Part shown: positions 22,940-25,880 of the stretch, one piece after another
Numbering within the stretch: position 1 is the first letter of the stretch
Layout of the letters: each line of letters begins with the position of its first letter
Assembly (NCBI GenBank): GCA_937981665.1
Contig: CALJOJ010000039.1
Coordinates: forward strand, 1-54,717
Direction: 5' to 3'
Source: an uncultured Rubritalea sp.
Lineage (GTDB): Bacteria > Verrucomicrobiota > Verrucomicrobiia > Verrucomicrobiales > Akkermansiaceae
DNA: 54,717 nt
Program-made: the position numbers and the translations under genes
The notes under the pieces: model-generated
Database searches by the model: none
What the model was told of the DNA's origin: nothing
The model's input: only the letters and a program-made list of their open reading frames with translations

Positions 22940-23533
22940 ATGAAACTTAAATACTCCCTTACTCTAACAGCTCTTGTAGCCTCTCTCATTTCCTGCTCAG
23001 AAAAGCATGAACCAGCAGCAGCCATGGAGGAACAGGTCACTAAACAATCTGAACTAGTCTATGACAACGTACCCACTAGCGAACAGATAAAACAAGCCAC
23101 GGATGCACTCTCTAACTATCTCCTAAAGAAAGCTCCGGAAGGAGCCATAGAAATAGCAGAAGTCCGCAAGACCGCAAAAGTAGGTGATGAAGTCATCTTC
23201 AACGGCAAAGCAATTGGCTCATTTAGAATCTTCCCAAAAGACCGCTCAGCGATGCTCCTCGGTGATCCGAATGTACTCACATCCTGTGACCTCATCCCAG
23301 GTGACATGTGCTTGAGACCATGGGACGTCTGCTGTGATGACCTTGATGATATCAACAACACCATTCTCACCATTCAGTTCCTAGACAACGAAGGAAACCT
23401 TATCAAAACTAGCCCTAAAGGACTCAACAGCCTAACAGAACTCTCAGAAGTCACTGTCATAGGAACCGTAGCTGGAGGATCTAACGAAAAGAATATGCTC
23501 ATCAATGCTACAGGCATCTTCGTGAAAAATTAA
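22940..23533 (+). CDS. Lipoprotein with a four-cysteine motif, unknown
   Basis: 197 residues with a lipoprotein signal (LTALVASLISC, Cys about 19). The mature part has a short helical region and then a compact beta-rich domain (about 75-195) that starts with KVGDEVIFNGKAIGSF, an OB-fold-like opening. It carries SCDLIPGDMCLRPWDVCCDD near residue 112, with four cysteines close together. The cysteines could bind a metal or form disulfides. I have the impression that similar proteins with this Cys pattern occur in Planctomycetes, but I cannot search. It follows the permease gene by 20 bases and is probably in the same operon. Confidence 0.7.
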   Translation: MKLKYSLTLTALVASLISCSEKHEPAAAMEEQVTKQSELVYDNVPTSEQIKQATDALSNYLLKKAPEGAIEIAEVRKTAKVGDEVIFNGKAIGSFRIFPKDRSAMLLGDPNVLTSCDLIPGDMCLRPWDVCCDDLDDINNTILTIQFLDNEGNLIKTSPKGLNSLTELSEVTVIGTVAGGSNEKNMLINATGIFVKN

Positions 23534-23582: not shown

Positions 23583-23978
23583 ATGGAAATCACCGTCAGC
23601 ACTCCAGCACTTCTCTTCCCCGCAGTCAGCTTACTCTTCCTCAGCTATACGAACCGCTTTCTCGCGCTGTCATCACTGGTACGCAGACTCCATAAGGAAT
23701 GGCAAGATGGAGATCATGACCCCATTCTCTTCGCTCAGATTAGAAACCTCAGTAGACGACTCACCATCATCCGCTGCATGCAGCTCACTGGTGCTATCAG
23801 TCTATTCTGGTCGGTACTCTCAATGATCTTTCTGTTTTTCAACTGTATAAACATTGGAGAGATCACCTTTGCCATCGCGCTGTTAGTCATGCTACTAAGC
23901 CTGACTGCACTCACCGTAGAAAGCGCGATTAGCGGTGGAGCACTCCGCATCATGCTCGATGAAGCTAACGAGAAATAG
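23583..23978 (+). CDS. DUF2721 membrane protein
   Basis: 131 residues with the DUF2721 pattern: STPALLFPAVSLLFLSYTNRF, a charged loop, then LTIIRCMQLTGAISLFW and two further hydrophobic helices ending in ALRIMLDEANEK. Three to four membrane helices are expected. The function of the family is unknown. It lies in line with the ABC genes. Confidence 0.8.
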   Translation: MEITVSTPALLFPAVSLLFLSYTNRFLALSSLVRRLHKEWQDGDHDPILFAQIRNLSRRLTIIRCMQLTGAISLFWSVLSMIFLFFNCINIGEITFAIALLVMLLSLTALTVESAISGGALRIMLDEANEK

Positions 23979-24003
23979 CTAACGAACAGCGGATTAAAAA
24001 CAA

Positions 24004-24037
24004 GATGGCTGGGAATAAAAATCCAAGCCCAGTCATC
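24004..24037 (+). other. Hairpin between the DUF2721 gene and the TGA-containing gene
   Basis: GATGGCTGGG pairs with CCCAGTCATC (10 bp, one G-U) around a 14-base loop, ten bases before the next ATG. No T run follows, so it is not a typical terminator. It could be an RNA processing or stability element. Confidence 0.4.
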
Positions 24038-24046
24038 TAAGTTTAT

Positions 24047-24568
24047 ATGAAAAGGTCTGTTCAATCTCTCGTCATCCTCAGCTCCATTGGCCTATGCATG
24101 ATCTTCATCATGTTCTTCGCAGCCAGTAACCTAAGCGCAGCAACTAGTAAATACCCAGTAGAAGTTGGCCCCGCTACATTCCTCCGTGATCATGATGCAG
24201 CTATGGAGAAATCTAAGACAACAGGAAAACCAGTCTTTGCCTTCTTCCAAGAAGTCCCAGGCTGAGCAGGCTGTAAAGATTTCGGTCGTGAGGTCATGAC
24301 TAATAAAACAATCATCAGCACTATTGAGAACTCATTCATCCCACTTCTCATCCATAATAACACAGGAACGGATGCTAAAATACTCAAGAAATACAACGAG
24401 CCATCATGGAATTACCAAGTCATTCGTTTTCTAACAAGCGATGGTAAGGACATCATCCCAAGAAAGTCTTCCGTTAATACCGTTAAGGCACTCAGTGCAA
24501 GAATGGTAACAACCCTTGAAAAAGCAAAGCAACCAGTCCCTGCTGATCTACAACAGCTAGCTAAATAA
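24047..24568 (+). CDS. Predicted selenoprotein: secreted thioredoxin-like protein with UxxC active site
   Basis: Read straight through one TGA (24263-24265), the frame gives 173 residues. A signal anchor comes first (about 1-31), then a thioredoxin-fold start (KPVFAFFQEVPG), then U-A-G-C with the TGA as residue 73 and the Cys as residue 76, and FGREVM and the remaining fold after it. The TGA stands exactly where Cys is expected in the CxxC motif of this kind of thioredoxin (VPGCxGC). The downstream part keeps frame, codon use and hydrophobic pattern to a proper stop, which argues against decay. A hairpin with the features of a bacterial SECIS follows the TGA. It would act in the periplasm as a thiol-disulfide oxidoreductase. 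The alternative is a fresh nonsense mutation. Confidence 0.8.
24263..24295 (+). promoter_or_regulatory. Predicted bacterial SECIS element
   Basis: After the TGA and 18 bases, a six-base loop GGUCGU is closed by six pairs, GAUUUC with GAGGUC (24278-24283 and 24290-24295, two of them G-U). The distance and the G at the loop start fit the known rules for SelB-recognised hairpins (loop about 16-37 bases after the UGA). The loop GGUC core also occurs in the Escherichia coli fdhF element. Weaker pairing extends the stem below an A-A mismatch. Confidence 0.7.
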
Positions 24569-24593
24569 AAATTTATTCATACGCAGTATTGTA

Positions 24594-24661
24594 ACAGTTG
24601 GTTTCCATCTTGCCAACAAATGCCTCTTTGTTAGGCTAGTGACAACGATGAAACCAACTGT
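24594..24661 (+). promoter_or_regulatory. Long leader hairpin burying the SelW-like start codon
   Basis: ACAGTTGGTTTCCATC (24594-24609) pairs with GATGAAACCAACTGT (24647-24661): 15 pairs with one bulge, and the ATG is inside the stem. Between the arms a second 9-bp stem forms (GCCAACAAA with TTTGTTAGGC, one bulge, loop TGCCTC). The structure should hide the start unless opened by translation, a protein or a ligand. Confidence 0.6.
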
Positions 24662-24938
24662 AACAATCACCTACTGCACAGGTTGCCGCTGGCTACTACG
24701 CGCCAGCTGGAATGCTCAAGAACTCTTGACCACCTTTGAAAAAGAACTAACAGCCGTCACCTTAGTCCCATCCGCAGACACCGGCGGCATCTACACCGTC
24801 ACCATCGATAAAACCATCATCTGGGACAGAAAAGAACAAGGACGCTTCCCAGAGATGAAAGAACTAAAACAACACATTCGCAACCACATCGCCCCAGAAA
24901 AAGACCTAGGCCACAGTGACAGCGAGGTGAAGAAATAG
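24648..24938 (+). CDS. SelW/SelT/SelH (Rdx) family protein, cysteine form
   Basis: 96 residues counting from the ATG at 24648 (MKPTVTITYCTGCRW). The active motif is CTGC at residues 10-13, where many relatives have CxxU. Family features follow: RASWNAQELLTTFE, the central VTLVPSADTGGIYTVTID, IIWDRKEQGRFPEMKELKQ and the LGHSD ending. These small cytoplasmic proteins have a thioredoxin-like fold and a poorly understood redox role. It lies 79 bases after the predicted selenoprotein, with a strong leader hairpin between. A GTG nine bases upstream is a possible but less likely start. Confidence 0.88.
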   Translation: MKPTVTITYCTGCRWLLRASWNAQELLTTFEKELTAVTLVPSADTGGIYTVTIDKTIIWDRKEQGRFPEMKELKQHIRNHIAPEKDLGHSDSEVKK

Positions 24939-24995: not shown

Positions 24996-25670
24996 TTATT
25001 TCAGGATATTCTCAGTAGCTAGTTTTTCAAGATAAGGTGGGTAACCAAATCTTTTAAGAGTCGTTTTTACCAGTGCTCGCAGCTTGATTCTCACACACCC
25101 ACGTTTCGTCCAGTCGATACTTGCGTTCTTTCACGCTACATTGACTACAACAATAGCTAAGTCTTTTAAATACTCTTTCTCCATGAATTCTCTAGCTTTT
25201 CCATTATCTGCAAGAGCCATGTAAAATGAATATTCGAAGTCAGTAAGCCCTCTCTCTTGCGACTCTTTATCAAAATATTTGATCTCTTTGGCATGTAATA
25301 TTAGCTCTTCTATCACCTCAGCTGCGGTGAGAACATTATTCTGATACTTACGAATGGTGTTTCCGAGCATCTCTGAGAGTTTCTTACTTTGGAGAGCATT
25401 ACGCTTTGTCCTAGCTTTGATTTCATCAATGATCTGACGGATTGCAGATTCTAACTCCACATCACTTTTCCCTCCTTCTCCACTTCCTTCAAATTTTGCC
25501 AAACTCGCTATTACAGCTTGGAAGAATGCGACCTCTTCCTTCAGGCTCACCGCCTCCTCACCAGAAATGGATAGCGCAAAGGCATTAGAGAGAGCATTCA
25601 CCTCTTTGCAGAATCTAGCACTACCATCATCTAGCCCTAGAATGTGTTCCTGAGTTTCGAGTAAACTTGT
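24996..25670 (-). pseudogene. Remnant of type I restriction enzyme subunit HsdR (C-terminal part)
   Basis: On the minus strand the sequence matches the C-terminal domain of HsdR: EHILGLDDGSARFCKEVNAL, then SLKEEVAFFQAVIASLAK, then the helical DEIKAR, RKYQNNVLTAAEVIEELI and YSFYMALADNGKA, and finally SIDWTK and VRIKLRALVKTTLKRFGYPP to a TAA at 24996. It is broken. The motor and nuclease parts are absent. A stretch of several dozen residues is missing at about 25430 (AIRQI joins directly to DEIKAR). A TGA at 25131 replaces what is probably an Arg codon. No hsdM or hsdS is nearby. It is a relic of a lost restriction system. Confidence 0.85.
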
Positions 25671-25684
25671 TTTGACGAAGAGTA

Positions 25685-25880
25685 AAACAACACTGCTCGA
25701 TAGGCTGCTGGAGTCGGCGGGGGTCAAGTGATCCCGCATGAGGAGTCCAAGCTGCAAGGAGGGAGTGCAGTGAAGGATGAACGTAATGACTAGATGAAGC
25801 GTAGGCGACGACGAGGACAGCACTTTACGCTCGACTACGGCTTCCTGAAAAAGTCTCAAGGAAAAGCAAAGACACTCCAA
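25685..25880. other. Unidentified GC-richer segment fused to the hsdR remnant
   Basis: From about 25685 to 25880 the base composition shifts (GGCGGGGGTC, GGCGACGACGAGGACAGC). No HsdR similarity remains, although the minus-strand frame stays open by chance. I see no transposase and no clear inverted repeat. It is probably foreign DNA inserted when hsdR was broken. Confidence 0.4.

Follow-up and report, generated by a model that had tools for sequence, protein, structure and literature searches.

A predicted selenoprotein of the VPGU thioredoxin-like family in an uncultured Rubritalea, with an MsrA-like half that appears to be a separate gene

In the window analysed here, a stretch of 54,717 nucleotides from an uncultured Rubritalea sp., a single TGA interrupts an otherwise open frame, raising the question of whether this codon ends a short protein or is read as selenocysteine (Sec), and, if the latter, what the resulting protein might do. 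The frame runs on the forward strand from the ATG at 24047 to a stop ending at 24568, and encodes 173 residues once the TGA is read as a residue. The sole in-frame TGA is codon 73 (24263-24265), in the motif context VPG-U-AGC, and 100 residues follow it to the end of the frame. Read-through translation thus reproduced the interrupted frame and the 100 open codons described in an earlier note on this DNA, and gene calling under the standard code produced the two short fragments that the note had expected from annotation (24047-24265, 72 aa; 24296-24568, 90 aa). Read-through translation, the codons of homologues and a match to the NCBIfam model NF041383 would together define 24047-24568 (+) as a selenoprotein gene whose product has Sec at residue 73 and represents the VPGU thioredoxin-like family in a short form.

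Evidence on this codon comes from homologues of the protein. A search covering 195 genomes from the same family returned matches in 48, of which 35 were strong (E 1.9e-28 or lower) and were all read at the codon; left out of the counts were 13 genomes in which every match was weak (E 1.6e-6 to 8.7e-4), together with a second, partial match in G031 that begins behind the site. Codon 73 was TGA in 27/35 strong homologues and TGC or TGT in the remaining 8, a distribution implying that the TGA is not there by chance, and the Cys three residues after the site was kept in all 35. The exchange between Cys and TGA that the earlier note had proposed as a check is therefore present at this codon. Four further homologues from named records, all MAGs with titles referring to Flavobacteriaceae, Saprospiraceae, Candidatus Kuenenia stuttgartiensis and Bacteroidetes, have Cys at the codon. 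A pseudogene or sequencing error, in which the TGA would be a broken Cys or Trp codon as the interrupted frame and its two annotated fragments might suggest, is nearly refuted, because the identical TGA occurs in 26 other genomes with the frame intact behind it, which makes an error very unlikely, and because Sec machinery is present. Reassignment of TGA to another residue, for which we found nothing in favour, is scarcely credible, as homologues lacking the TGA have Cys, fitting Sec and not Trp or Gly, and the Sec machinery is complete. Among the weak matches, three (G108:C158:37530-37841, G019:C30:283135-283407 and G156:C189:5257-5472) fall in frames 471, 461 and 424 aa long, each containing two TGA codons, and might represent double selenoproteins.

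The machinery that the earlier note had assumed for this organism was found by searching its genome (G000; 2.7 Mb, 107 contigs, 92.94% complete). The four components expected of a genome encoding bacterial selenoproteins all scored above their family cut-offs: tRNA-Sec (60.4 bits, cut-off 47; anticodon UCA read from the alignment), selA (497.9 bits, cut-off 267.9), selB (271 bits, cut-off 242.25) and selD (383.7 bits, cut-off 125), the frame of the last itself containing one TGA. ARAGORN did not call a tRNA-Sec in this genome. Among 12 genomes of the same genus, selA and selD exceeded their cut-offs in 11 each, and selB and tRNA-Sec in 9 each. Three members of the genus (G001, G002 and G005) exceed the cut-offs for selA and selB and carry a selD with a TGA, without a strong copy of the gene studied here, implying that the VPGU gene does not sustain Sec use in the genus.

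Across the 195 genomes, selA was detected in 70, including 25/27 genomes with the TGA form and 0/8 with the Cys form (Fisher p 1.9e-6, kinship ignored); the two TGA genomes lacking a selA match were G150 (72% complete) and G114 (86% complete), completeness being a limit on every absence reported here. Few independent events lie behind this association, since the Sec and Cys forms occupy different genera (TGA in g1, g9, g11, g12 and g16; Cys in g6, g7, g13 and g15). In three genomes of g11 (G033, G042 and G050) the gene adjoins selA on the same strand, with 29 nt between the selA stop and the ATG in G033. The reading of the UGA at 24263-24265 as Sec (U73), as the earlier note proposed, is borne out by the Sec genes of the genome and by the TGA and Cys codons of homologues, and comparison of sequences makes it near certain.

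The encoded protein would fold as a thioredoxin, as the earlier note had also recognised. Residues 46-112 (24182-24382, +) match the Pfam model Thioredoxin_7 (PF13899; 30.4 bits, cut-off 27), and a structure model built from five aligned sequences (mean pLDDT 80.3) places U73 immediately ahead of a helix spanning residues 74-82. The UxxC motif U73-A-G-C76 (24263-24274, +), identified from the translation, homologues and model, would thus stand at the start of this helix, in the position of a redox-active pair. Fold matches in the PDB include 2dlx, 3f9u, DsbH and DsbD-gamma (E 4.9e-6 to 1.5e-4). The N-terminal residues 1-34 (24047-24148, +) form a hydrophobic stretch, recognised by eye and modelled with pLDDT <50, which is a probable signal peptide and suggests export. 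Insertion of Sec into an exported thioredoxin-like redox protein is very probable, slightly less so than the identity of the residue itself.

The gene directly behind the putative selenoprotein (24639-24938, +) belongs to the SelT/SelW/SelH (Rdx) family and has a CxxC motif, with Cys where its kin have Sec. When this SelW-like protein, a DUF2721 protein and the protein encoded at 22940-23533 were searched for at E 0.01 around the homologues at 38 other loci, for the most part with some 1.5 kb of flanking sequence per side, none was matched; the same search recovered all three proteins from L009. Farther along, a frame of about 249 aa on the reverse strand (25131-25880) matches a type I restriction enzyme subunit in its C-terminal part alone (T1RH-like_C) and may be a fragment.

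Sec insertion in bacteria calls for a SECIS hairpin, modelled in a 2026 review (PMC13188914) as a stem of 4-16 bp with a loop of 3-9 nt, a G in the first two loop positions, a distance of 16-37 nt from the UGA and an energy of -7.5 kcal/mol or lower. The likeliest candidate, selected by folding and by paired changes, lies at 24284-24301 (+; GGUCGUG-AGGU-CAUGACU), with arms at 24284-24290 and 24295-24301 forming 7 pairs and the loop AGGU at 24291-24294, 25 nt after the UGA. It agrees with the published model in every respect, narrowly so in energy (-7.8 kcal/mol), and its pair probabilities are 0.85-0.94 in a 36-nt fold. In the five sequences with the AGGU loop, the class to which the window belongs, 93.3% of the cells of a nine-pair helix are paired and two pairs are altered on both sides, as against zero in slid versions of the helix; a set of five leaves shuffling a weak discriminator, as 87/500 shuffles reached two such pairs and 23/500 the covariation score.

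This candidate overlaps the hairpin of the earlier note (24278-24295, +), which can indeed be drawn as described, with six pairs and a loop GGUCGU at 24284-24289 that begins 18 nt after the TGA. Its proposed role as the SECIS was not favoured: at -4.9 kcal/mol (-5.7 with an extra pair) it is above the -7.5 limit and less stable than the overlapping structure at -7.8, its pair probability is 0.06, and it is not kept among relatives of the window's class, in which 73.3% of cells are paired and no pair is altered on both sides. We judge that it is not the SECIS of this gene. It would nonetheless stand in the register of 21/27 TGA homologues (GGUC, 18-19 nt) and the window is able to form both hairpins, so that it might be the working signal after all, or alternate with its neighbour; given its energy, its pair probability and its poorer conservation against the AGGU hairpin, we regard either version as unlikely. 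The SECIS is probably the hairpin at 24284-24301.

The wider set of homologues would be consistent with two registers of one signal. The best folds of the TGA homologues carried a GGUC loop at 18-19 nt in 21/27 and an AGGU loop at 25 nt in 5/27, with L090 having neither. Among 18 relatives with GGUC at 19 nt, the covariation score of 0.299 was reached by 0/500 shuffles and slid versions gave at most 0.141; the pair beside the loop-closing one was C-G in 8, U-A in 8 and unpaired in 1 of 17 distinct rows. Stems of at least 5 pairs in the tested registers were found in 26/27 TGA and 1/12 Cys homologues, a comparison biased towards the TGA set by the picking of registers after these homologues had been seen. 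In the window's own genome, best folds gave loops of GUU for SelD and AGUUC for MsrA, and no convincing hairpin was found for a peroxiredoxin-like gene. An Rfam search over 23900-24700 returned three matches, all far under gathering scores and unrelated in kind.

Stability of the fold was rejected as proof in its own right. The 64-nt stretch at 24257-24320 folds only modestly better than its shuffles (z -1.52; 20/200 fold equally well), so that the hairpin by itself proves little, and synonymous-codon shuffles left the window unexceptional (p 0.172). In the latter analysis p 0.05 was reached by 5/27 TGA and 1/12 Cys homologues, with a mean z of -0.91 against -0.27 and a difference between the groups at no better than p 0.049. 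The case for Sec is carried by the Cys/TGA exchange and the machinery, not by fold energy. A separate, strong hairpin with 11 pairs in one helix lies ahead of the ATG, in the gap after the upstream gene (24003-24038, +); the 66-nt stretch around it has a z of -4.43, equalled by 1/200 shuffles, and no T run follows it. It could be a terminator or a leader element.

The family to which this protein belongs has already been catalogued. The model NF041383, in full VPGUxxT family thioredoxin-like (seleno)protein, type 2, was matched over positions 1-135 of 287 (E 3.2e-53), which comprise the VPG-U/C half, at 181.2 bits (174.3 bits in a phylum-wide scan) and thus under the curated cut-off of 275; its C-terminal MsrA-like half has no counterpart in the 100 residues after U73. 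The same review (PMC13188914) lists NF041383 as a VPGUxxT family thioredoxin-like protein, with hypothetical protein OS_HP5 as an alias, and traces the latter to 2007 work on the symbiont of a gutless worm. On sequence grounds the window gene is a short homologue outside the curated cut-off, and a protein that usually has two parts is here divided between two genes. Among the literature matches listed, no paper dealt with the short form or with the selenoproteome of Verrucomicrobiota.

When homologues were classed as short or long by their length behind the site and a Cys motif, 17/27 TGA forms were short, 13 of those in genus g9, and 10/27 were long, one of the long TGA forms (L100) having no Cys motif. 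Cys forms were long in 7/8 cases within the family and in 4/4 named records. In a scan of the phylum with NF041383, 9/387 genomes held a protein over the cut-off, a TGA being absent from 8 and present in 1; weaker matches were left unused, except for a match to the C-terminal half in the window's own genome. That match led to P0002 (G000:C26:34907-35467), a protein of 187 residues that covers NF041383 positions 122-287 at 113.4 bits, has a hydrophobic stretch at its N-terminus and is encoded on a different contig from the window gene. In 40 genomes searched, strong separate copies occurred in G051 (72% identity) and G159 (63%), both of which have short TGA forms, and nothing convincing was found in the remaining 14/17 short TGA genomes (best E 3.9e-4, G137).

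Several comparisons relate the C-terminal half to methionine sulfoxide reductase A (MsrA). In the fused homologue L010 this half matches PMSR positions 1-43 of 153 (25.7 bits, cut-off 23.7), MsrA chains are retrieved by a profile built from four Cys relatives of the fused kind (best E 1.1e-4), and the MsrA structures of Clostridium oremlandii (E 1.8e-4) and of PilB (E 1.9e-3) follow a thioredoxin-like chain among the matches to a model of the fused L070 protein (mean pLDDT 78.9). P0002 itself passed the cut-off of no MsrA model: Pfam gave nothing at 0.001, and the model for bifunctional MsrB/A was matched weakly, at 21.3 bits against a cut-off of 330. At L070:788-2581, the fused VPGC thioredoxin/MsrA-like gene is followed 24 nt behind by a classical msrA (190.3 bits, cut-off 108.1). 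The window's genome also encodes a TGA-bearing MsrA with the motif GUFWG (117.5 bits with C for U, cut-off 108.1). The gene for this MsrA is adjacent to a TGA-bearing peroxiredoxin-like gene on the selB contig (L134:1348-2788, G000:C41).

From the fusions, the three divided cases and the one msrA neighbour, we consider it somewhat better than an even chance that the window protein serves an MsrA-like partner. Against this role stand the 14/17 short forms without a convincing C-terminal half, the lack of a Pfam match for P0002 and the long form L100 without the Cys motif. The 14 short forms without a partner also argue for a broader role, in which Sec is inserted into a general envelope thiol-disulphide reductase of the DsbD-gamma or DsbH kind, or into a reductant linked to peroxide, with the MsrA-like half of no consequence for the short form. 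The presence of DsbH and DsbD-gamma among the fold matches and of a TGA-bearing peroxiredoxin-like gene in the same genome would be consistent with such a function, which we hold to be a serious contender somewhat short of an even chance; the MsrA-like fusions outside g9, the three divided pairs and the msrA neighbour count against it.

In the favoured reading, SelB carrying Sec-tRNA-Sec would bind the hairpin just behind the UGA, most likely that at 24284-24301, and codon 73 would be decoded as Sec. U73 and C76 would then work together as the redox-active residues of UxxC where the thioredoxin helix begins, U73 attacking an oxidised partner and C76 resolving the mixed bond. Outside g9, 21/26 of the homologues read are long: in these the thioredoxin-like domain continues into a divergent MsrA-like domain, which mostly keeps a conserved Cys, whereas the window's organism encodes this domain as a protein by itself that begins with a hydrophobic stretch. 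The likeliest task would be reduction of the MsrA-like partner, and perhaps of the selenocysteine MsrA of the genome as well, in the setting of repair of oxidised methionine outside the cytoplasm; the comparisons show the Sec at codon 73, the machinery, the fold and the split, and from them we infer the electron path, the substrate and the compartment. The combined picture of an exported, selenium-based methionine-repair pair divided in at least three genomes, together with an insertion hairpin that has moved between two registers, is put forward tentatively, as appreciably less likely than the partner role.

Because annotation splits the gene and the read-through protein scores below the family cut-off, short VPGU selenoproteins are probably undercounted. 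With fused and divided forms, and both Sec and Cys versions, in a single bacterial family, one can test directly what the MsrA-like half does and what is gained from Sec, and a hairpin in two registers of one gene offers a natural experiment on the requirements of SelB. If true, the shift of register would be a recoding signal caught moving along a conserved coding sequence.

Among known systems, the closest is NF041383, which has in common with the window protein a homologous thioredoxin-like N-terminal half, the VPGU motif and Sec/Cys exchange at the same residue; its name specifies UxxT, whereas the window protein has UxxC and its C-terminal half is a separate gene. The type 1 model of the same series (NF041382; 349 positions) is homologous over window residues 21-170, at 124.2 bits, but this is far under its cut-off of 350. 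The C-terminal domain of DsbD and DsbH (1uc7, 2fwg and 2ju5) share with the window protein the thioredoxin fold of exported reductases, but have Cys where it would have Sec, with 13-21% identity in structural alignments. MsrA, represented by the Sec-MsrA of C. oremlandii (4lwj and 4u66) and the PilB domain (3bqh), resembles the C-terminal half of the fused relatives in both sequence and fold, although its match to the MsrA model is confined to the initial third and the window protein itself has no such half.
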